This document shows positions 52,642-64,000 of a DNA stretch of 64,000 nt, piece by piece. How positions within the stretch are numbered: the stretch's first letter is position 1; each line of letters opens with the position of its first letter. Source of the DNA: Hydrogenophilales bacterium 28-61-23 (GTDB lineage Bacteria; Pseudomonadota; Gammaproteobacteria; Burkholderiales; Thiobacillaceae); assembly GCA_002281555.1 (NCBI GenBank), contig NCGJ01000002.1, positions 248,001-312,000 of the forward strand. Direction: 5' to 3'. A model generated the notes under the pieces. That model was not told the origin of the DNA. It saw only the letters and a program-made list of their open reading frames with translations, and ran no database searches. The position numbers and the translations under genes were made by a program.

Positions 52642-53433
52642 TCAGGCCGCCTTCTTCAGGTGCTTCTGATACAGGAACTCCAGCACCTGGCCGCGCAGAT
52701 GGTGATAGGCCGGGTTTTCCGCCAGTTTCAGACGGTCGCGCGGGCGTGGCAGGTCGACTTCCAGGATTTCGCCGATGGTCGCGGACGGGCCGTTGGTCAT
52801 CATCACGATGCGGTCCGACAGCAGCACGGCCTCGTCCACGTCGTGCGTCACCATCAAGGTGGTGGCCTGGGTTTCCTTGACGATGCGCATCAGCTCATCC
52901 TGCAGGCCGGCGCGGGTCAACGCATCGAGTGCGCCGAACGGTTCGTCCAGCAATAGCACTTTCGGTTCCATCGCCAGCGCGCGGGCGATGCCGACGCGCT
53001 GTTTCATGCCGCCGGAGATTTCGTTGGGATGCTTGTGGATGGCATGGCTCAAGCCGACGAGTTCCAACGCGGCCTGAGTGCGTTCCTTCAGTTTGCTCTT
53101 GGGCTCCTTGGCGCCGAATACCCGCTCCACCGCCAGGTAGACGTTGCCGAAGCAGGTCAGCCAGGGCAGCAGGCTATGGTTCTGGAACACCACGCCGCGT
53201 TCCGGTCCCGGCCCCTTGATTTCCTTGTCCGACAGCAGCAGCACGCCTTGGGTCGGTTCGGTCAGTCCGGCGACCAGATTCAGCAGCGTGGATTTGCCGC
53301 AGCCGGAGTGGCCGATCAGCGCGATGAACTCGCCCTGTTTGACGTCCAGGTTGATGTCGGTCAGCGCGGTGAATTTGCCCTTTTTGGTGTCGAACACCAT
53401 CTTGGCGTTGTCGATGTGCAGGTAGCTGTGCAT
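52642..53433 (-). CDS. nrtD: Nitrate ABC transporter ATP-binding protein
   Basis: 263 residues from ATG 53433, preceded by GGAG at 6 bp; an upstream ATG at 53445 is the alternative. ABC motifs: Walker A GHSGCGKST, signature EISGGMKQRVGIARAL, Walker B VLLLDEPFGALD and the switch VTHDVDEAVLLSDR. It belongs to the nitrate/sulfonate/taurine importer ATPase group (NrtD/TauB/SsuB) and powers nitrate uptake with NrtA and NrtB. There is no NrtC. It is the last gene of nrtA-globin-nrtB-nrtD. Confidence 0.93.
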   Translation of the reverse strand: MHSYLHIDNAKMVFDTKKGKFTALTDINLDVKQGEFIALIGHSGCGKSTLLNLVAGLTEPTQGVLLLSDKEIKGPGPERGVVFQNHSLLPWLTCFGNVYLAVERVFGAKEPKSKLKERTQAALELVGLSHAIHKHPNEISGGMKQRVGIARALAMEPKVLLLDEPFGALDALTRAGLQDELMRIVKETQATTLMVTHDVDEAVLLSDRIVMMTNGPSATIGEILEVDLPRPRDRLKLAENPAYHHLRGQVLEFLYQKHLKKAA

Positions 53434-53447
53434 TTGAAACTCCATGT

Positions 53448-53555: not shown

Positions 53556-54473
53556 TCACTCGTAATTGAAGCGATTCGCGATCATCACCAGCACCTGTTC
53601 CAGCAGCAGGCCGACGATGCCGACGATGAAGATGGCGATCAGGATGTGTTCGACGTTCAGGTTGTTCCACTCGTCCCAGACCCAGAAACCGAGGCCGGTG
53701 CCGCCGGTGAGCATTTCGGCGGCGACGATGACCAGCCAGGCCACGCCGATGGACAGGCGGATGCCGGTCATCAGATGCGGCAGCACCGATGGGAACAGGA
53801 TGCGGGTGAATATCTTCCACTCGGACAGATTCAGCACCCGCGCCACGTTGAGGTAATCCTGCGGTACGCGCGAAACTCCGGCGGCGGTGTTCAGGATGAT
53901 CGGCCAGATGCTGGAGATGAAGATCACCCACAAGGATGCGGGCTCGGTCTCCTTGAACACGTACAGGCCGATGGGCAGCCAGGCCAGCGGCGACACCGGA
54001 CGCAGCAGGCTGATGATGGGCGAGGCCATGCCGGAGAGGAACTGGAAGCGGCCGATCATGAAACCGAGCGGAATGCCGACCAGCGCGGCCAGACCGAAGC
54101 CGGCGCCGACGCGGTAGAGGGAATGCAGGATGTTCCAGCCGATGCCCTTGTCGTTCGGGCCGTTGTCGTAGAACGGGTCGGCGAACAGCAGCTTGGCCGA
54201 TTCCCAGGTCTTGGCCGGGCCGGGCAGGCCGCTCTCGCCGCCGCTGACCGAGACCATCTGCCAGAGCAGGATGAACAGCGCGATACCGAGGATGGGCGGC
54301 AACACGGCGCGGAAGAATTTTCCGATGGCTTCGGCAAAAGCCAGTCCGCGCTCGGTTTGCAGAAAGGGTGTGGGGCGCGCTTCGGCTACGGAAACGGCCG
54401 CTGGCAACGGGGTGGTATCGGGCGAGTTCATGATGTCTTTCAGACTGTTTTCGTTGATGGTCACGGCGCTCAT
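53556..54473 (-). CDS. nrtB: Nitrate ABC transporter permease
   Basis: 305 residues. A ~65-residue hydrophilic N-terminus is followed by about six membrane helices (AVLPPILGIALFILLWQMV first). The binding-protein-dependent permease signature is around NVARVLNLSEWKIFTRILFP (EAA-like loop). The sequence matches the NrtB family of nitrate importers. A good ribosome binding site (CAGGAGA) precedes the ATG. It is downstream of the globin gene, with a strong 15-bp hairpin between them. Confidence 0.92.
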   Translation of the reverse strand: MSAVTINENSLKDIMNSPDTTPLPAAVSVAEARPTPFLQTERGLAFAEAIGKFFRAVLPPILGIALFILLWQMVSVSGGESGLPGPAKTWESAKLLFADPFYDNGPNDKGIGWNILHSLYRVGAGFGLAALVGIPLGFMIGRFQFLSGMASPIISLLRPVSPLAWLPIGLYVFKETEPASLWVIFISSIWPIILNTAAGVSRVPQDYLNVARVLNLSEWKIFTRILFPSVLPHLMTGIRLSIGVAWLVIVAAEMLTGGTGLGFWVWDEWNNLNVEHILIAIFIVGIVGLLLEQVLVMIANRFNYE

Positions 54474-54545: not shown

Positions 54546-54959
54546 TTACGCCGGAGCGTAGGCTGCCTGTTTCATGGCGGATGCCAGCGTGCCGTAGGCT
54601 TCCAGCCATGCATCCTCGACGGCCGGGGTGAACTGCTCGCCCAAGCCCTTGCCCAGAGTCCAGATCAGGGCGCTGCCCACGGTGTCGTAATGCGCTTCCG
54701 TTACGCCGTATGCGACATGGCGACGTCCCATTTCCTCGATCGTCTCAAGAATCGGGGCGAGCTTGTCCAGACTGTTGACGACCGTGTTGAGCATCGCCAT
54801 CAGCTTGCGGCCTTGCTCGACCATATCGCCCTTGAACAGGGCGCGCAGGGCAGGATCGAGTTCGAACAACTGGCCGTAGAACAACTGCGCCGCTGTGTCC
54901 TTGATCGGGAGAACCTGCTGCCAGCTAGTGCGCACCAGTGCAATTTTTTCGGGTGTCAT
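54546..54959 (-). CDS. Single-domain bacterial haemoglobin (globin)
   Basis: 137 residues. It resembles the globin domain of flavohaemoglobins and Vitreoscilla haemoglobin: LVRTSWQQVLPIKDTAAQLFYGQLFE with Tyr28 at B10, proximal-type H81 (GRRHVAYGV) and a C-terminal WLEAYGTLASAM. No FAD/NAD reductase domain is attached. Such globins bind O2 and NO. Its position between nrtA and nrtB suggests a role against NO or nitrosative stress arising from nitrate or nitrite reduction (inference). Confidence 0.9.
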   Translation of the reverse strand: MTPEKIALVRTSWQQVLPIKDTAAQLFYGQLFELDPALRALFKGDMVEQGRKLMAMLNTVVNSLDKLAPILETIEEMGRRHVAYGVTEAHYDTVGSALIWTLGKGLGEQFTPAVEDAWLEAYGTLASAMKQAAYAPA

Positions 54960-54983: not shown

Positions 54984-56264
54984 TTAAGCTTTGATCTTGA
55001 AGCCGTCGGCATACGCCTTCGGGTTCTTGCCGTCCCAGACCACGCCGTCGATCAGCTTGGACGTGCGCATCTCGGACTTCGGCAGCGGCGTCTTGGTCAT
55101 CGCGGCGGCTTCCTTGTACAGCTTGATCTGGTTCACCTGCTTGGCCACGGCCAGGTAATCCGGGTGTTCCTTCAGCAAACCCCAGCGCTTGTGCTGGGTC
55201 AGGAACCACATGCCGTCCGACAGGTAGGGGAAGTTGACCTTGCCGTCGTTGAAGAACTTCATGTAGTTGGCGTCCTGCCATTTCTTGCCGATGCCGTTGT
55301 CGTACTGGCCCAGCATGCGGTCTTCGATGACGTCGAACTCGGTATTCACATAACCCTTGCCGGAAATGATGCGGGCGGTTTCCGAGCGGTTGCTCATGGT
55401 GTCGATGTACTTCGAGGCATCCAGGATCGCGGCGATCATGGCGCGGGTGGTGTTGGGGTACTTCTGCACGAACTCCAGCGTCGTGCCGAGCACCTTTTCC
55501 GGGTGATCGGTCCAGATATCCTGGCTGGTCGCGGCGGTGAAGCCGATCTTGTCGTGAATGGCGCGCGCGTTCCACGGCTCGCCGACGCAGTAACCGTCCA
55601 TCTTGTCGACGCGCATGTTGGCGACCATCTGCGGCGGCGGCACGGTAATCACCTTCACTTCCTTGAACGGGTCGATGCCGTAATTTGCCATCCAGTAATA
55701 CAGCCACATGGCATGGGTGCCGGTGGGGAAGGTCTGGGCGAAAGTCCATTCCTTCGGCTCGGCCTTGACCAGTTTGGCCAGGCCGGCGCCATCGACGACG
55801 CCCTTGGCCTTGAGCTGGTTGTTCAGCGTGATGGCCTGGCCGTTGTGGTTCAGGTTCATCAACACGGCCATGTCTTTCTTCGCCCCGCCGATACCGAGTT
55901 GCAGGCCGTAGACCAAGCCGTAGAGCACATGCGCCGCGTCCAGTTCGCCGTTGCTCAACTTGTCGCGCACGCCGGCCCAGGACGCTTCCTTGCTCGGCAC
56001 GATCTTGATGCCGTACTTCTTGTCGAAGCCCTTCTCGGCGGCCATGACGACGCTGGCGCAATCGGTCAGCGGAATGAAGCCGATCTTGATTTCGGTCTTT
56101 TCCGGTGCATCGGAACCGGCGGCCCAGGCGGCGCTGCGTACACCGGGGGGGACTAGAGACATGATGGCTGCGGCGGCTGACATTCCTGCGGCTTTCTTCA
56201 AAAAATCACGTTTACCGTCGTTGACGACGACCAGGTTGCTGCTGGGCGGAAGCGGGTTATCCAT
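54984..56264 (-). CDS. nrtA: Nitrate ABC transporter substrate-binding protein
   Basis: 426 residues from ATG 56264, preceded by TTGGAG at 8 bp; an upstream ATG lies within the leader hairpin. The N-terminus has a Tat-like signal (GKRDFLKKAAGMSAAAAIMS; KR in place of RR) with cleavage near AWAAG. The mature protein follows NrtA/CmpA: EIKIGFIPLTDCASVVMAAE, KEASWAGVRDKLSNGELDAAHVL, YCVGEPWNARAIHDKIGF, and a C-terminal KLIDGVVWDGKNPKAYADGF. It captures nitrate (or nitrite) in the periplasm. Expression is probably controlled by the leader described separately. Confidence 0.94.
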   Translation of the reverse strand: MDNPLPPSSNLVVVNDGKRDFLKKAAGMSAAAAIMSLVPPGVRSAAWAAGSDAPEKTEIKIGFIPLTDCASVVMAAEKGFDKKYGIKIVPSKEASWAGVRDKLSNGELDAAHVLYGLVYGLQLGIGGAKKDMAVLMNLNHNGQAITLNNQLKAKGVVDGAGLAKLVKAEPKEWTFAQTFPTGTHAMWLYYWMANYGIDPFKEVKVITVPPPQMVANMRVDKMDGYCVGEPWNARAIHDKIGFTAATSQDIWTDHPEKVLGTTLEFVQKYPNTTRAMIAAILDASKYIDTMSNRSETARIISGKGYVNTEFDVIEDRMLGQYDNGIGKKWQDANYMKFFNDGKVNFPYLSDGMWFLTQHKRWGLLKEHPDYLAVAKQVNQIKLYKEAAAMTKTPLPKSEMRTSKLIDGVVWDGKNPKAYADGFKIKA

Positions 56265-56276
56265 TTCTTTGACTCC

Positions 56277-56315
56277 AAAAAAAACGGCATCCAACCCCGA
56301 AGGGAAGGACGCCGT
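56277..56315 (-). terminator. Leader terminator (attenuator) before nrtA
   Basis: On the minus strand ACGGCGTCC pairs with GGATGCCGT (9 bp, one G-U). CCC-UUCG-GGG stacks inside as a UUCG-capped hairpin, then eight Us follow. It sits directly upstream of the nrtA ribosome binding site, so it must be bypassed for expression. Its left arm shares bases with the second ANTAR-type hairpin. Confidence 0.85.
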
Positions 56316-56320
56316 TGTCC
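56307..56320 (-). promoter_or_regulatory. ANTAR-type target hairpin P2 in the nrtA leader
   Basis: GGAC-AACGGC-GTCC: 4-bp stem and six-base loop with A at position 1 and G at position 4. The GTCC strand is also part of the terminator stem, so the two structures are mutually exclusive. Confidence 0.65.
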
Positions 56321-56359
56321 ATATTGATCAGACCAAAATACTGCGAAGGAGCGACATGG

Positions 56360-56379
56360 CCAGCGCGCCATTGCACTGG
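56360..56379 (-). promoter_or_regulatory. ANTAR-type target hairpin P1 in the nrtA leader
   Basis: CCAGTGC-AATGGC-GCGCTGG: 7-bp stem (one G-U) and a six-base loop with A1 and G4. It starts just after the expected transcription start. About 39 nt separate it from P2. Confidence 0.7.
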
Positions 56380-56546: not shown

Positions 56547-56984
56547 TTACTGGTTCACGAAGTCGTCCAGCATGGCTTTCAATTCCGCCCGCCAGGCTTC
56601 GATCATCGAATGCGCCGGGGCATCCGGAAATTCCGTCAGCCAGAGGGCGAAGTCGTCGCTGATTACGCTCATCCGGCCTTCCCTCTGGATCAGGGTCAGG
56701 CGCAGCGGCAGCAGATTGAGCAGGCGCGGTTCCACGGCCTCCGCCCAGCGCACGGCGGATTCGCTGCCGATGAACAGGATGCGGATGCCCGGGTTTTCAA
56801 AGCCGCGTTTGGCCAGCGCGGTGTCGATGGGTTGCATCTTCACCAGCACCAGTTCGTGGTTGGCGGCCGCCAGGGCCAGATCGTCCAGCGCCTGACGCAT
56901 ATCGACCGCCTTGCTTACGCTGAGCGGCTCGGCCTGCGCGGACAGGCTCAGGGCCAGGATGATAGGAAGGGCGAGGCGTTTCAT
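56547..56984 (-). CDS. Exported DUF302-like protein (second copy)
   Basis: 145 residues from ATG 56984, which overlaps the preceding stop (ATGA). Signal peptide MKRLALPIILALSLSAQA. The mature part (DMRQALDDLALAAANHELVLVKMQPIDTAL, GIRILFIGSESAVRWAEAVEP, LLPLRLTLIQREGRMSVIS) resembles DUF302, a small alpha/beta domain of unknown function. The second of two adjacent related genes between the PEP-CTERM gene and nrtA. Confidence 0.7.
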   Translation of the reverse strand: MKRLALPIILALSLSAQAEPLSVSKAVDMRQALDDLALAAANHELVLVKMQPIDTALAKRGFENPGIRILFIGSESAVRWAEAVEPRLLNLLPLRLTLIQREGRMSVISDDFALWLTEFPDAPAHSMIEAWRAELKAMLDDFVNQ

Positions 56985-57469
56985 AACGAGGCTTCTTCCA
57001 GTATCGCCAGATAGTCGCGCTTCAACTCCTGGCATTCCTCATGCAGGCCCGGCATGTTCTGCGCGACCCAGGCCGGATTCACCGCAATCAGTTCAACCCC
57101 GGTCGGGGTTTCCACCAGGGTGACCCGGCAGGGCAGCACTTGCGAGGCGCGTGCATCCAGACGCAACGCCTTGTCCATCTTGGCGAAATTGCAGAAATAG
57201 ACCAGACGCATCGAGCGCACCTCCTCGGCGTAAGGCACCAGCCGGCTGTCGATGGCCTGCTGCCGCACGAAGGTGTAGTTGTGGTTGACGATAGCCTGGT
57301 TCAGCGCCGCGACGGCCGCTTCCATGCCACGGCCGCGGGCGGTGGCGGTGAGGATCATGGGTTCTGGCGCAAGCGCGGGCACGGACTCGGCGGCGGACGT
57401 CACGCCGGCCAGGAACAGCGCCAGAAGCGGGAACAGGAAACCGATGCGGGCACGGATGAACCGAGTCAT
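56981..57469 (-). CDS. Exported DUF302-like protein (first copy)
   Basis: 162 residues from ATG 57469 (AGGAGGT ribosome binding site). N-terminal signal peptide with hydrophobic FLFPLLALFLAGVTSAA. The mature part has GMEAAVAALNQAIVNHNYTFVRQQ, RLVYFCNFAKMDKALRLDAR and LPCRVTLVETPTGVELIAVNP, typical of DUF302-like proteins. The function is unknown; some relatives are linked to sulfur or redox proteins. Two cysteines (in YFCNF and LPCRV) could bind metal or form a disulfide. Confidence 0.75.
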   Translation of the reverse strand: MTRFIRARIGFLFPLLALFLAGVTSAAESVPALAPEPMILTATARGRGMEAAVAALNQAIVNHNYTFVRQQAIDSRLVPYAEEVRSMRLVYFCNFAKMDKALRLDARASQVLPCRVTLVETPTGVELIAVNPAWVAQNMPGLHEECQELKRDYLAILEEASL

Positions 57470-57583
57470 GAAACCTCCTGTTGCGATAAAGCGGGTTGTG
57501 CGCAACATGCTCGAACAGAAAAGTTATAGTAAGCCGAATGCCTGGAAATCAGCGCGTGCGATCCGGATCGCTGGCGCGGAAAT

Positions 57584-58935: not shown

Positions 58936-59520
58936 TCAGTCTCCGAAGCCGTCCAGCACCAGCCGCGCGATATCGGCCAGACGTTTTCGATGCGCCATCG
59001 CCTCCCGGCGCAGCGCCTGGTAAGCCGCTTCCTCGCTCAGATTTTGAGTCTTCATCAGACGGCGCTTGGCCTGTTCCACCAGTTTGTGTTCCTGCAGCTC
59101 CTGGCGCGCGCGCAGGGTGTCTTCACGCATGGCCTGCCAGGCTTCGAAGCGGACCTGGGCGAGTTGCAACAGCGGCTGGATGCGTTCGTTTTCCAGGCCA
59201 TTGACCACGTAGCAGGCGACACCGGCGGAGACCGCGCGGCGCATGGCATCCTGCGATTCGTCCTGGCTGAACATGACGATGGGGCGCGGCGTGCGTTCGC
59301 TCATCACCACTACCTGTTCCAGCGTGTCGCGGCTGGGCGATTCGGTGTCCATGATGATCGCGTCCGGTTCCAGTTCCGCCACCCAGCCGGGCAGGTCGAT
59401 GGCGCGGTCGAGGCGGCCGACCAGACGGTGTTCGGGCGCGCTTGCCGTCAGCGCTTCCATCAGGTTGTCGAGCCGGCGGCGCGAGGGGCTGACGATCAAT
59501 ATGGTGAGACCTGCATTCAT
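58936..59520 (-). CDS. nasT: ANTAR-domain RNA-binding regulator, NasT-like
   Basis: 194 residues. The N-terminal pseudo-receiver begins ILIVSPSRRR, lacking the acidic pair of true receivers, with only a single Asp in IIMDTESPSRD. A helical linker leads to the C-terminal ANTAR domain (~135-190): HKLVEQAKRRLMKTQNLSEE, then AAYQALRREAMAHRKRL. ANTAR proteins bind twin six-base-loop hairpins and prevent terminator formation, activating nitrate-assimilation genes. The start overlaps the nasA stop (ATGA). The predicted target is the nrtA leader. No NasS sensor is visible in the window. Confidence 0.92.
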   Translation of the reverse strand: MNAGLTILIVSPSRRRLDNLMEALTASAPEHRLVGRLDRAIDLPGWVAELEPDAIIMDTESPSRDTLEQVVVMSERTPRPIVMFSQDESQDAMRRAVSAGVACYVVNGLENERIQPLLQLAQVRFEAWQAMREDTLRARQELQEHKLVEQAKRRLMKTQNLSEEAAYQALRREAMAHRKRLADIARLVLDGFGD

Positions 59521-62195
59521 GGCCGTTGCAGCAAGCGCTTCAGTTCGGGGATGCAGGAACCGCAGTTGCTGCCCGCTTTCAGTTCGATGCCCAGAGCTTC
59601 CACCGATGCGGCACCCGATGCAATCGCCTGGTTGAGCTCGTTTTCGCCGACGCCGAAGCAGGCGCAGACGATGCGGCCGCAGTCGGGCACGGCCTGGCTG
59701 GGGCGGCCGAGCAGCAAGGCGCTACGTTCGTCGTTGGACAGCGCTTCGCGTTCAAACAGGGATTCCAGCCAGTGGCGCGGCGGCAGTTTGGCGGCCTCGC
59801 GTTCCAGGAAATAGACCGCCTGCACCTGTTCATCGCGAATCAGCGCGCCGCGATAGCGGCCCGCCGCGCGGTCGGCCATCTCGATCCAGTCGCCCGGAAG
59901 AGCCAGCCAGTCGCGCATGTGTTTGGACCAATCCGCTGGCCAGTCGGCGGGCTGATCGATTCCGGCGATTTCATGTCGCCAGCAGGCTTTGCCGCGGATC
60001 TTGCTCCAGTAACCCGTTTGCTTGCCGCAATCGAGCGGTGCACGGGTCATGACAAAACCTTGCCAGGTGGCGGCATAGGCCTCGACAGCCACCGGTGTTT
60101 GCTTGAATTCAGGTTGGCCGGAGATCGGGTCGGTCACCGCATGCGCCAGCACATCGACGCGACCGCGCGCGCTGAACTGGGCATTCCAGTGTATCGGCGC
60201 GAACACGCTGCCGCGTTGCTGCGCGGCGCCGACTTGCACCCGCGCCAGCAGTTCGCCGTGGGCGTTGCTGACGCGGGCCAGGGCGCCTTCGGTCAGGCCT
60301 GCGCGGCGGGCGTCGTCGGGGTGAATCTCGATATACGGTTCGGCGATGTGCGCCAGCAACTTGGGCGTCATCGCCGTGCGCGTCATGGTGTGCCACTGGT
60401 CGCGGATACGGCCGGTGTTGAGCGTGAACGGGTGCGCGGCATCGACAGCGTGAACCGGCGCGCGCGGGCTGATCGGCACCATGCGGGCGCGGCCGGAGGG
60501 GGTGAAGAAGCGGCCGTCGGCGAATAGACGCGATGTGCCGCCTTGCGCCGTGACGGGCCATTGCACCGGTTGCAGGGCGTCGTAGTTTTCCGCGCTCATT
60601 CCTGTTTTCACCGGCATGGCCGGGAGCAAGCCGCTCAAGTCGAAATCCCGCGCGGTGTCATTCTCGAACCCCGACAGCGCCGCGTGTTCATTGAAAATCT
60701 GCGCCGGGCCGGTGAACGCAAAGGCCGCCGCATGGCCCATGCGGCGCGCCACTTGGTCGACGATCCACCAGTCCGGCCGCGCCTCGCCGGGCAAGGGCAG
60801 GAAGGCGCGCTGGCGGGAAATGCGGCGTTCCGAGTTGGTCACCGTGCCGTCCTTCTCGCCCCAGGCGGCGGCGGGCAGGCGGACGTGGGCATGGACGCTG
60901 GTGTCGGTGCGGGCGACGACATCGGAGACGACGACGAAAGGACATTTTCGCAGCGCCGCGACCACGTCATCCGCTTGCGGCAGGCTGACCGCCGGGTTGG
61001 TGGCGATGATCCAGAGCGCTTTGATGCGGCCGTCATCCACGGCTCGGAACATGTCCACCGCCTTGAGGCCGGGTTGTTGCGCCATGTTCGGCGCGCGCCA
61101 GAAACGGCCGACGCGGTCGATAGCCTCGGCGCTGAAATCCATATGCGCGGCCAGTTGGTTGGCCAGGCCGCCGACTTCGCGCCCGCCCATCGCATTGGGT
61201 TGGCCGGTAATGGAAAACGGCGATGCTCCGGGCAATCCGACGCGGCCGGTGGCGAGGTGGCAGTTGATGATGGCGTTGCCCTTGTCGACGCCGGACGATG
61301 ACTGGTTGATGCCCTGCGAGAACAGCGTGACGGTCCTGGGCGTGTGCGCGAACAGGCGGAAAAACGCGGCGACGTCGGCTTCGGTCAGGCCGCAGGCCTG
61401 AGCCACTTGTGGAATCGACACGCCGCTCACCGCCTGCAAGGCCGCGCCGAAACCTTCGACGTGCGCTTCGATGTAGGCCCAGTTCAGCGCATCTTCGCGT
61501 TTGAGGTGGTTGAGCAGACCGTTGAACAGCCAGGCATCGGCGCCGGGTTTGATCGCCAGATGCAGATCGGCCCCGGGTTGCAAAATCTCGGCGGTCGCGG
61601 TGCGGCGCGGGTCGATCAACACCACTTTCATTTCCGGCCGCGCCTTCTTCGCCGCGACCAGACGCTGGAACACAACCGGATGCGCCCAGGCGGCGTTGGA
61701 GCCGACCAGCACCACCAGGTCGGCCAGTTCCAGGTCTTCGTAACAGGCGGGCACGCTGTCGGCGCCGAAGGCGCGTTTGTGCGCGGCGACGGCGGAAGAC
61801 ATGCACAGGCGCGAGTTGGTGTCGATGTTGCCGGAGCCGATGAAGCCCTTCATCAGCTTGTTGGCGACGTAGTAATCCTCGGTCAGCAACTGGCCGGAAA
61901 CGTAGAAGGCGACGGCGTCCGGCCCGTGTTCGGCGATGACGTCGCGAAAGCGATTCGCCACGGTATCGAGGGCGATGTCCCAGCTGGTTGCCACGCCGTC
62001 GATTTCAGGATGCAGCAGGCGGTCGTCCAGGCTCAGCGTTTCTCCGAGCGCCGCACCTTTCGAACACAAGCGGCCCAGGTTTGCCGGGTGCTCGGGATCG
62101 CCGCGCACTTTGTAGTCATCATCCTCGCGGCTGACCAGAACGCCGCAGCCGACACCGCAGTAGGGGCAGGTGGTGCGGATGGGGGAGAGGGTCAT
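59517..62195 (-). CDS. nasA: Assimilatory nitrate reductase catalytic subunit
   Basis: 892 residues from ATG 62195 (MTLSPIRTTCPYCGVGCG); longer upstream frames are not family-like. The N-terminal [4Fe-4S] cysteines are C10, C13, C17 and C44. Molybdopterin domains follow (DTNSRLCMSSAVAAHKRAFG with the Mo-ligand Cys region, NPAVSLPQADDVV, the C-terminal dinucleotide domain LNTGRIRDQWHTMTRT). The last ~60 residues form a BFD-like [2Fe-2S] domain (IVCACFGVGENEL, SNCGSCIPELKRLL), so electrons probably arrive through this added cluster. It reduces nitrate to nitrite in the cytoplasm. Confidence 0.96.
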   Translation of the reverse strand: MTLSPIRTTCPYCGVGCGVLVSREDDDYKVRGDPEHPANLGRLCSKGAALGETLSLDDRLLHPEIDGVATSWDIALDTVANRFRDVIAEHGPDAVAFYVSGQLLTEDYYVANKLMKGFIGSGNIDTNSRLCMSSAVAAHKRAFGADSVPACYEDLELADLVVLVGSNAAWAHPVVFQRLVAAKKARPEMKVVLIDPRRTATAEILQPGADLHLAIKPGADAWLFNGLLNHLKREDALNWAYIEAHVEGFGAALQAVSGVSIPQVAQACGLTEADVAAFFRLFAHTPRTVTLFSQGINQSSSGVDKGNAIINCHLATGRVGLPGASPFSITGQPNAMGGREVGGLANQLAAHMDFSAEAIDRVGRFWRAPNMAQQPGLKAVDMFRAVDDGRIKALWIIATNPAVSLPQADDVVAALRKCPFVVVSDVVARTDTSVHAHVRLPAAAWGEKDGTVTNSERRISRQRAFLPLPGEARPDWWIVDQVARRMGHAAAFAFTGPAQIFNEHAALSGFENDTARDFDLSGLLPAMPVKTGMSAENYDALQPVQWPVTAQGGTSRLFADGRFFTPSGRARMVPISPRAPVHAVDAAHPFTLNTGRIRDQWHTMTRTAMTPKLLAHIAEPYIEIHPDDARRAGLTEGALARVSNAHGELLARVQVGAAQQRGSVFAPIHWNAQFSARGRVDVLAHAVTDPISGQPEFKQTPVAVEAYAATWQGFVMTRAPLDCGKQTGYWSKIRGKACWRHEIAGIDQPADWPADWSKHMRDWLALPGDWIEMADRAAGRYRGALIRDEQVQAVYFLEREAAKLPPRHWLESLFEREALSNDERSALLLGRPSQAVPDCGRIVCACFGVGENELNQAIASGAASVEALGIELKAGSNCGSCIPELKRLLQRP

Positions 62196-62248: not shown

Positions 62249-62587
62249 TTAGCGATTCGGGCAGCCGTCTTCCGGCGTCAGCGACAAACTGACCCGGCCA
62301 TCCTCCACCCGCACCGGGTAACGCGCCGCGCAGCCCACGTCGGGGGCGACGGCGAGGCCGGTATCGAGATTGATCTTCCAGTCGTGCAGCGGGCAAGCCA
62401 CCTTTTTGCCATGCACGATGCCTTGCGACAGCGGGCCGCCCTTGTGCGGGCATTTGTCGCGCAGGGCGAAGATTTCGTCATCGACGGTGCGGAAAACGGC
62501 GATTTCGCCGGCCGCCGTGGTGATGACGCGGGCGCCCTGGCGGGGAATGTCGTCGACGCGTCCGACCTGAATCCAGTTCTCGTTCAT
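62249..62587 (-). CDS. nirD: Nitrite reductase (NADH) small subunit NirD
   Basis: 112 residues from the second ATG (62587), which has AAGGA at 7 bp; the first ATG (62593) is too close to it. Rieske-like fold: QVGRVDDIPRQGARVI, CPHKGGPLSQG and CPLHDWKINLDTG keep both Cys-x-His pairs, so a [2Fe-2S] centre is likely, unlike some NirD proteins that lost it. It works with NirB in siroheme-dependent nitrite reduction to ammonium. It lies between nirB and nasA in the operon. Confidence 0.94.
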   Translation of the reverse strand: MNENWIQVGRVDDIPRQGARVITTAAGEIAVFRTVDDEIFALRDKCPHKGGPLSQGIVHGKKVACPLHDWKINLDTGLAVAPDVGCAARYPVRVEDGRVSLSLTPEDGCPNR

Positions 62588-62603
62588 GTTCATTTCCTTG
62601 TCA

Positions 62604-64000
62604 TCAAGCCAGCGCCGCCATCGGCGTGAACTCGTGTTTTTGTCCGCCGTCGGCCCGCTCTTTCCACGGATCCACCTGAGCCGGCTTCTGCGAGATCAAA
62701 AAACGCTCGGCCAAAATTTTGCGGTTCGTCTCGTCTTCCACCACCCTGGCCTTGATGTGGCTTAAACCGACGCGCTCCACCCAGGGCGCGGTGCGCTCCA
62801 GATAGTGCGCCTCCTCGCGGTAGAGCTGGGTGAAGGCGGCGCAGTATTCCATCACCTGCGCCTCGGTCTCGACTTTGCACAGCAGGTCGGTGACGCGCAC
62901 CTTGATGCCGCCATTGCCGCCGACGTGCAGTTCGTAGCCGGAATCGACGCAGACCACGCCGAAGTCCTTGATCGTCGCCTCGGCGCAGTTGCGCGGGCAG
63001 CCGGACACCGCCATCTTGTATTTGTGCGGCGTCCACGAACCCCAGGTCATCTGCTCCAGCTTGACGCCCAGGCCGGTGGAATCCTGCGTGCCGAAACGGC
63101 ACCAGTCGGAACCGACGCAGGTTTTCACCGTGCGCAGCGCCTTGCCGTAGGCGTGGCCGGAGACAAAGCCGGCGTCGGACAAATCCTTCCACATCGCCGG
63201 CAGGTCTTCCTTCTTGACGCCGAACAGATCGATGCGCTGGCCGCCGGTGACTTTCACTTCGGGCACGTTGAATTTCTCGGCCACGTCGGCGATGGCGCGC
63301 AGTTCCTTCGGGTTGGTCAGGCCGCCCCACATGCGCGGCACCACCGAGAAGGTGCCGTCTTTCTGGATGTTGCCGTGCGCGCGCTCGTTGATGTAGCGCG
63401 ACTGGGCGTCGTCCAGATATTCGGTCGGCCAGGCGCAGAGCAGGTAGTAGTTCAGCGCCGGGCGGCATTTGGTGCAGCCGTCCGGGGTTTTCCAGCCCAG
63501 CGCCCGCATGGTTTCCGGCATCGTCTTGAGCGTGTCCTTGAGGATGGCGGCGCGGATTTCGTCATGGCTGTGCTCGGTGCAGCCGCACAGCGGTTTTTTC
63601 GACGGCGCGGTGGAGTAGTCGCCGCCCGCGGTGGCCGCCAGGATGGTTTCGACCAGACCGGTGCAGGAGCCGCAGGAACCGGAGGCCTTGGTATGCGCGC
63701 GCACTTCGTCCAGCGTGAACAGTTTCTTCTCGCGCACCGCCTTGATGATGTCGCCCTTGCAGACGCCGTTGCAGCCGCAGATTTCGGTTGTATCCGGCAA
63801 GGCCATGACGCGTGAAATCTCGTCGCCCAGGCCGCCGCCCGCGCCGGAATCGCCGACGTGGTGGCGACCGAACAGCAGCTTGTCGCGGAAGTCGGTCACA
63901 TCGGTGGCGTCGCGCATCAGCTCGAAATACCAGGCGCCGTCGAGCGTGTCGCCATAGAGCACGGCGCCGGCCAGCTTGTTGTCCTTCAGCACCAGTTTCT
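62604..64000 (-). CDS. nirB: Nitrite reductase (NADH) large subunit NirB, C-terminal part (cut by window end)
   Basis: The frame is open to the window edge, so the FAD/NADH-binding N-terminal half is outside. The visible ~464 residues hold two BFD-like [2Fe-2S] Cys sets (ICGCNGVCKGDI; GSCGSCTGLVE), a third Cys group (CGCTEHSH; DGCTKCRPALNYY), then the ferredoxin-like half-domain and siroheme/[4Fe-4S] region: TCVGSDWCRFGTQDS (CX5C) and VSGCPRNCAEA (CX3C). It reduces nitrite to ammonium with NADH. It is the first visible gene of nirB-nirD-nasA-nasT, whose promoter lies beyond the window. Confidence 0.97.
   Translation of the reverse strand, partial: KLVLKDNKLAGAVLYGDTLDGAWYFELMRDATDVTDFRDKLLFGRHHVGDSGAGGGLGDEISRVMALPDTTEICGCNGVCKGDIIKAVREKKLFTLDEVRAHTKASGSCGSCTGLVETILAATAGGDYSTAPSKKPLCGCTEHSHDEIRAAILKDTLKTMPETMRALGWKTPDGCTKCRPALNYYLLCAWPTEYLDDAQSRYINERAHGNIQKDGTFSVVPRMWGGLTNPKELRAIADVAEKFNVPEVKVTGGQRIDLFGVKKEDLPAMWKDLSDAGFVSGHAYGKALRTVKTCVGSDWCRFGTQDSTGLGVKLEQMTWGSWTPHKYKMAVSGCPRNCAEATIKDFGVVCVDSGYELHVGGNGGIKVRVTDLLCKVETEAQVMEYCAAFTQLYREEAHYLERTAPWVERVGLSHIKARVVEDETNRKILAERFLISQKPAQVDPWKERADGGQKHEFTPMAALA

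Follow-up and report, generated by a model that had tools for sequence, protein, structure and literature searches.

How is the nitrate transporter gene nrtA of this bacterium switched on, and what is to be made of a leader in which two hexaloop hairpins stand 39 nt apart? The reading which we favour, and consider very likely, is that the nrtA leader is a NasT-controlled transcription attenuator lying behind a sigma-54-type promoter. The source genome (G000; 3.5 Mb, 98% complete) carries the following genes in the window, by which we mean the whole 64-kb stretch of DNA that was analysed:

52642..53439, minus strand: nrtC, ATP-binding protein (TIGR01184 above cut-off; start approximate)
53556..54473, minus strand: nrtB, permease (PF00528)
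54546..54959, minus strand: single-domain globin gene between nrtA and nrtB (PF00042)
54984..56264, minus strand: nrtA, nitrate ABC transporter binding protein (PF13379, 351 bits)
58936..59520, minus strand: nasT, degenerate receiver plus ANTAR domain (PF03861, 53.6 bits)
59517..62195, minus strand: nasA, assimilatory nitrate reductase (start approximate, by eye; NasC, NasA and NapA models matched below their cut-offs)
62249..62593, minus strand: nirD (Rieske domain)
62604..63992, minus strand: nirB, 3' part (TIGR02374; the gene and its leader extend beyond the window)

Read along the strand, the order is nirB leader, nirB, nirD, nasA, nasT, a PEP-CTERM protein, two small proteins, nrtA leader, nrtA, globin, nrtB and nrtC, with an overlap of 4 nt between nasA and nasT. 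In a PF03861 search nasT was the sole match in the genome, and its end lies 2.67 kb upstream of the nrtA start, in agreement with the first-pass annotation, which had placed a NasT-like ANTAR gene about 2.7 kb upstream. Its receiver scored 22.8 bits against PF00072, below the cut-off of 30.2. By eye, the start of NrtA resembles a Tat signal (KRDFLKK). Between nasT and nrtA there is a small overlapping gene pair, one of them DUF302, at 56547-57508; of 80 related loci, 7 have the pair immediately before nrtA and another two have it elsewhere in the vicinity. The globin gene between nrtA and nrtB is also seen in several Thiobacillus and Sulfuricella relatives, and it perhaps serves NO protection while nitrate is assimilated.

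The leader spans 56277-56379 of the minus strand and consists of P1, a 39-nt linker, P2 and a terminator with U8, behind a promoter-like site:

56408-56394, minus strand: sigma-54-type promoter by sequence pattern, TGGCAC-N5-TTGC, TGGCACGGGCATTGC
56379-56360, minus strand: P1, CCAGUGC-AAUGGC-GCGCUGG, 7 bp, loop at 56372-56367, at the predicted 5' end of the RNA
56359-56321, minus strand: linker between P1 and P2, 39 nt, carrying CGCUCCUU
56320-56307, minus strand: P2, antiterminator hairpin, GGAC-AACGGC-GUCC, 4 bp, loop at 56316-56311
56316-56283, minus strand: intrinsic terminator stem of 10 bp plus CCC/GGG and a UUCG cap, which excludes P2
56284-56277, minus strand: U8 tract of the terminator, its first two Us also paired in the stem
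56276-56273, minus strand: nrtA ribosome binding site GGAG, directly after U8, with the nrtA ATG at 56264

As the first-pass annotation had described, both hexaloops (AAUGGC in P1, AACGGC in P2) carry A1 and G4, P2 has a stem of 4 bp (GGAC/GUCC), and eight Us stand right before the ribosome binding site of nrtA. It had also given P2 a GUCC strand in common with a 9-bp, UUCG-capped terminator. The sharing and the cap hold good; the length does not, as the arms AACGGCGUCC (56316-56307) and GGAUGCCGUU (56292-56283) form 10 contiguous pairs, topped by a UU/UU internal loop, CCC/GGG and the UUCG cap, and the 5' arm takes in the whole P2 hexaloop as well as the GUCC 3' arm of P2. In the predicted fold of the free leader RNA P1 and the terminator are formed (-58.2 kcal/mol, an energy reached by 1 of 200 shuffles; z -2.9), and the 39-nt linker has no stable fold of its own (z 0.91). 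The P2 pattern GGACAANGNNGTCC occurs once in the 64-kb window against 0.00 expected. This terminator, with its interrupted stem, is absent from the output of a simple terminator scan of the window.

The window contains a single exact match to the promoter pattern; with one mismatch allowed, matches are fewer there than in shuffles, and the pattern alone is not significant. The call gains its weight from relatives, because 93 of the 110 nrtA leaders fetched, a set that includes near-duplicates, have a relaxed form of the pattern upstream of the gene; in alignment A2, of 20 leaders, the promoter is invariant, those 20 having been picked using that very pattern. The predicted transcript start lies about 12 nt downstream of the promoter GC element, at P1, which itself starts 13 nt after the promoter.

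The relatives also bear on the hairpins. An NrtA search of 61 genomes matched 45, from which 30 loci were obtained, and a contig search supplied the best 80 of 325 relatives (Thiobacillaceae, Hydrogenophilales, Sulfuricella, Rhodoferax, Herbaspirillum, Cupriavidus and others), a set that overlaps the 30 loci. In a first scan 90 of 110 leaders showed an A1/G4 P2 overlapping a terminator; at least the one in L054 is probably spurious. When near-duplicates and leaders shorter than 300 nt were dropped, 91 of the 110 remained, and a scan blind to the loop letters found a hairpin with a 6-nt loop overlapping a terminator in 80 of these non-redundant leaders; A1 was present in 70 and G4 in 72 of the 80 loops. 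Upstream of P2, the 66 nrtA leaders with a recognised promoter and P2 contain 45 A1/G4 hexaloop hairpins (stem of at least 5 bp), whereas 200 shuffles gave 1.1 on average and never more than 5. Such a hairpin is lacking in 14 of 77 nrtA leaders, and P1 loops without G4 also occur (AAAAGC in L058).

Among 20 window-type leaders P1 pairs in 93.7% of cells, with both sides changed at 4 of 7 pairs, in rows chosen after the hairpins had been seen and columns set by the alignment. Its covariation score over 18 distinct rows is 0.591, against 0.256 when shuffled and no more than 0.242 when slid; 7 of the 18 rows, mainly in the Thiobacillus group, cannot form the outermost pair. P2 hardly varies within the close set and has no stem covariation there; in 18 wider leaders, several of them picked by a pairing rule, it scores 0.478 versus 0.250, with the stem variants GGAC/GUCC, AGAC/GUCU, CGAC/GUCG and AGGC/GCCU. 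The terminator stem covaries among relatives too. Covariation or conservation of the two loops in relatives was the test which the first-pass annotation had set beforehand for its ANTAR-type attenuator layout; it was run, the leader passed, and the P1/P2 covariation and the conserved loops support that layout.

Across genomes the element accompanies ANTAR genes, which were found as PF03861 in 39 of the 61. R1, a covariance model of P2 and the terminator trained on 24 leaders, matched at E<=1e-4 in 24 of 35 genomes with an ANTAR gene and in 0 of 16 without one (51 genomes, each at least 90% complete and at most 5% contaminated; Fisher p 1.9e-6, a value which is overstated because the genomes are kin and R1 was trained on some of them). 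The other 11 of the 35 near-complete ANTAR genomes had no R1 match at this threshold. Over all 61 genomes the counts are 28 of 39 with and 2 of 22 without, the two being G012 (58% complete) and G013 (84%), which have a strong leader match and no ANTAR gene found. Of the 28 genomes whose NrtA match is long and reaches at least 68%, the two without an ANTAR match (G031 and G012) have no recognisable nrtA terminator (L017, L003). That the leader decays where NasT is gone is only suggestive, because G058 (L026) has an ANTAR gene yet fails the same terminator scan, and G012 is 58% complete with an intact nirB leader. By eye, the nrtA cluster of G012 (L204) abuts gyrB-, dnaN- and dnaA-like genes, with no nasA or nasT seen upstream.

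Some of the residues by which an ANTAR protein reads its target are present in NasT. In EutV, according to Walshe 2022 (PMC8934654), Tyr164 and Met172 read the hexaloop, and R142, K143 and K147 make further contacts. NasT Tyr167 and Met175 align with the first two, given an inferred 2-residue offset of the EutV crystal chain; the Met is kept in 59 of 59 related loci and the Tyr in 55 of 59. The three further contacts correspond to His145, Lys146 and Gln150, of which only the second is kept. The receiver is degenerate, as in a NasT-type ANTAR protein: the usual Lys is found in 0 of 59 related loci (one being unaligned there) and Asp58 in 35 of 59.

The same P2 and terminator recur in a second leader, before nirB (G000:C11:313103-313149), 1.1 kb outside the window. 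An exact 14-base search with the P2 string found four places in the genome, these two leaders and two others (L038, L041), which appear by eye to lie within coding sequence and were rejected as leaders. The P2 pattern with one mismatch is rarer in this genome than its reversed control, and its matches were assessed only by covariance model search. Under strict filters R1 was strong only at nrtA (E 3.4e-11) and nirB (E 4.6e-11), both of them training rows, and found no further strong site, the next new one having E 0.155. Among relatives, the P2 pattern stands before nirB in 25 of 30 fetched loci (30 of 39 matches were fetched). The first-pass annotation had missed this leader, the sigma-54-type promoter and the apparent absence of NasS, to which we return below. 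In three of the nirB loci (L178, L179, L187) a GC-rich repeat of about 70 nt, in at least one copy, is seen by eye around the nirB start, between the leader and the conserved coding part.

The following sequence of events is proposed. RNA polymerase would start at the sigma-54-type promoter, so that P1 is the first RNA structure made. In the absence of active NasT, the nascent RNA would go on to form the terminator, leaving nrtABC silent. Active NasT, presumably in answer to a signal, would dock on the A1/G4 hexaloop of P1, of P2 or of both and keep P2 closed; this would remove ten bases of the 5' arm of the terminator, and the polymerase would read into nrtA, globin, nrtB and nrtC. The same NasT should also act on the leader of nirB-nirD-nasA-nasT. 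As nasT lies downstream of the nirB leader, its own likely target, and would be transcribed together with nirB, NasT is probably self-amplifying.

The spacing of its hairpins sets this leader apart from known cases. Published ANTAR models describe either a simultaneous grip of both hairpins or a successive hand-over from P1 to P2; both are based on EutV and both require close hairpins. Ramesh 2012 (PMC3369931) gives linkers of 5-12 nt for the Enterococcus faecalis eut leaders and reports that 3 or 14 nt strongly lowered eutP induction, and Walshe 2022 (PMC8934654) that 20 additional nt in the EutV linker abolished antitermination in vitro; a survey of actinobacteria accepted linkers of 2-25 nt (PMC8164766). 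These are measured or curated limits, standing outside the 2012 search definition of ANTAR-target leaders, which has a linker of variable length. With 39 nt the present leader is beyond the known EutV range and is therefore a variant of the motif, as the first-pass annotation, which had given the same length, had guessed.

It is one of many. When the nearest A1/G4 hexaloop (stem of at least 5 bp) to P2 is taken in 63 nrtA leaders, it lies 2-12 nt away in 24, 13-22 nt away in 8 and 23-56 nt away in 31, many of the last being from close Thiobacillus relatives; in 29 of these 31 no nearer hexaloop appears even if a 4-bp stem is allowed. The idea that a fold of the linker brings P1 and P2 together was rejected, as the 31 long linkers are no more stable than expected (mean z -0.33) and the CCAUGU/AUAUGG helix lacks compensatory changes in the alignment. 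Inspection by eye also suggested a leader peptide read from the linker (ATG TCG CTC CTT), which was discarded because some relatives lack its ATG. The number of hexaloops varies as well as their spacing: 11 of 77 leaders have two A1/G4 hexaloops (at least 4 bp) upstream of P2, possibly by chance in L118, and in those three-hexaloop leaders with a recognised promoter the first hexaloop comes about 10-24 nt after it. From their sequences it is plausible that the two-hexaloop leaders with long linkers arose by loss of a middle hairpin.

These observations raise a version of the attenuator model, compatible with the favoured reading, in which NasT acts through P2 alone, P1 is accessory or recruiting, distance hardly matters and one, two or three hexaloops all work; we give it slightly less than an even chance. 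It accords with linkers ranging from 2 to 56 nt, the long ones without excess stability, and with the nirB leaders, of which 1 of 20 has an upstream A1/G4 hairpin (stem of at least 5 bp) compared with 42 of 66 nrtA leaders; the nirB leader of this genome has an upstream hairpin with the loop UUCCUC. Walshe 2022 (PMC8934654) likewise reports binding of EutV to P1, P2 and the pair without significant difference. Against it stand the requirement of EutV for both hairpins at short spacing in antitermination (PMC3369931, PMC8934654), the report from Paracoccus denitrificans that a mutation in hairpin I is severe and one in hairpin II mild (PMC5424462), and the covariation of P1, by which P1 is kept and so does something in nrtA leaders. 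Since nirB leaders mostly have one hexaloop, one NasT should read one- and two-hexaloop leaders in the same cell. In two nirB leaders (L170 in G017, L185 in G022) long insertions, seen by eye, separate the 5' hairpin region from P2, which offers a natural test of any role of the sequence upstream of P2. More generally, nature provides related leaders with one, two and three hexaloops and linkers of 2-56 nt, probably read by related NasT proteins, so that the rules of spacing and copy number can be tested directly on natural sequences, with no need of artificial constructs.

With NasS apparently absent, the question arises what informs NasT of nitrate. No signal-less, NrtA-like sensor of the NasS kind was found in this genome, 98% complete: an NrtA query at E<=10 returned only NrtA, and a Phyllobacterium NasS query at E<=1e-5 (alphaproteobacterial, so named as it lies beside an ANTAR gene and has no signal) matched only NrtA, at 32%. 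PF13379 found four more weak proteins (39-71 bits) and one below cut-off; two NasS proteins score 198 and 248 bits. In relatives nasT is within reach of nrtA in 58 of 80 loci, and in the locus DNA covered a second NrtA/NasS-like gene was present in one of these 58 (L051). The L051 protein and two family members have no signal in the frames as cut, and no such copy was found in the present genome. In a tree with a midpoint root and a long-branch warning, these signal-less proteins group with the NasS-like protein encoded beside nasT in G222 (99/98), and this group stands next to betaproteobacterial NrtA (82/89, joint fork 84/88). In G019 and G022, P2-terminator leaders (L198, R1 E 2.3e-8; L199, R1 E 3.1e-7) are found at a transporter protein that resembles NrtA (41-46% identity) and bears a Tat-like signal; it is the only NrtA match at E<=1e-30 in those genomes. 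The suggestion that NasS takes the place of NrtA in G019, G022 and G005 was dropped after reading by eye, because the G019/G022 protein has that signal and adjoins permease and ATPase genes, and because the G005 match begins in a signal-like stretch.

A nasS mutant of P. denitrificans has lost nitrate control (PMC5424462), from which it follows that NasT here is either free, with only its amount mattering, or held by another protein. One conceivable holder, in an unlikely reading built from gene content and protein sequences, is NrtA itself, which in the cytoplasm before Tat export would hold NasT as a nitrate sensor, NasS being dispensed with and the spacing of one to three hexaloops being irrelevant. 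It is suggested by NrtA being the only close-family protein found in the genome, by its Tat-like signal, by the nearness of nasT to nrtA in relatives and by the tree position of the NasS-like protein of G222. If true, the binding protein of the transporter would gate its own gene.

Another possibility, very unlikely in our view, is that the leader acts mainly through RNA structure and translation, CGCUCCUU in the linker pairing with the GGAG of nrtA and NasT being secondary. CGCUCCUU and its neighbours (56339-56359) are kept in most window-type leaders of alignment A2. In favour of the pairing, 11 of the 12 window-type leaders aligned have CUCC in their linker (the exception is L049); against it, CUCC is missing from 8 of 8 Thiobacillus-type leaders of the same alignment, where GGAG is kept. 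A second candidate linker helix is without a compensatory pattern. That the U-tract hairpin is simply a terminator of the upstream gene pair, or insulation, with an incidental hexaloop look, is extremely improbable: it does follow the gene whose end is at 56547, and this stretch has no more terminator-like sites than shuffles have, but a promoter-like site lies between that gene and the hairpin, as in most relatives, the same element precedes nirB and other nitrate genes, the hexaloop letters and P1 pairing are conserved, and the element tracks ANTAR genes across genomes.

The NasT-controlled attenuator may also explain two Rfam families. One of them, RF00625 ('Pseudomonas sRNA P11'), has been described before as a Pseudomonas small RNA of unknown function. 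Its consensus, like that of RF03032 ('narK RNA'), has promoter-like letters GGCAC..UGC and the P2 hexaloop, and that of P11 also contains the terminator; the P11 consensus structure places pairs inside the apparent promoter DNA. At gathering scores Rfam found nothing in the window and only a tRNA in 15 related loci; under lax thresholds the window leader reached 29.1 of 70 bits against RF00625 (E 5.8e-5) and 19 of 43.2 bits against RF03032 (E 0.11), both below the gathering cut-off. Among 274 sampled genomes of the class P11 matched 2 and narK RNA 5. One of them, G222, has a P11 match (126 bits) before nirB and a narK match (55 bits) before a gene which resembles narK in sequence; both matches contain a pair of A1/G4 hexaloops, separated by 3 and 4 nt respectively (L235 1480-1680, L237 1480-1600), compared with 39 nt in the window leader. 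Judging from these sequences, the two families are likely ANTAR (NasT) attenuators before nirB and the narK-like gene, and the P11 RNA probably arises by termination within a NasT leader, so that both gain a likely identity as NasT leaders.

Among known systems, the eut leaders read by EutV (Ramesh 2012, PMC3369931; Walshe 2022, PMC8934654) have the same two A1/G4 hexaloop hairpins, the second mutually exclusive with an intrinsic terminator, and share with this genome the ANTAR-domain Tyr and Met (PMC8934654); they differ in their linkers, which are short in E. faecalis (PMC3369931). P. denitrificans, as described in PMC3795266 and PMC5424462, also combines an ANTAR protein of the NasT type with leader hairpins ahead of genes for nitrate assimilation, but there nasTS form a separate unit upstream of nasA, whereas here nasT ends the nirBD-nasA run, and NasS is present there and was not found in the genome here. 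The nasF leader of Klebsiella oxytoca (PMC7496416, PMC3369936) likewise precedes nitrate genes and has two hairpins with A1 and G4; its protein NasR has a NIT nitrate sensor of its own, whereas NasT here has only a degenerate receiver. In the titles and abstract openings of the open-access papers surveyed, no report of NasT leaders with one or three hexaloops or of NasT without NasS was found. The type of switch, an ANTAR leader, is already known; what is unusual in this one and its relatives is the long spacing of the hairpins and the varying number of hexaloops.
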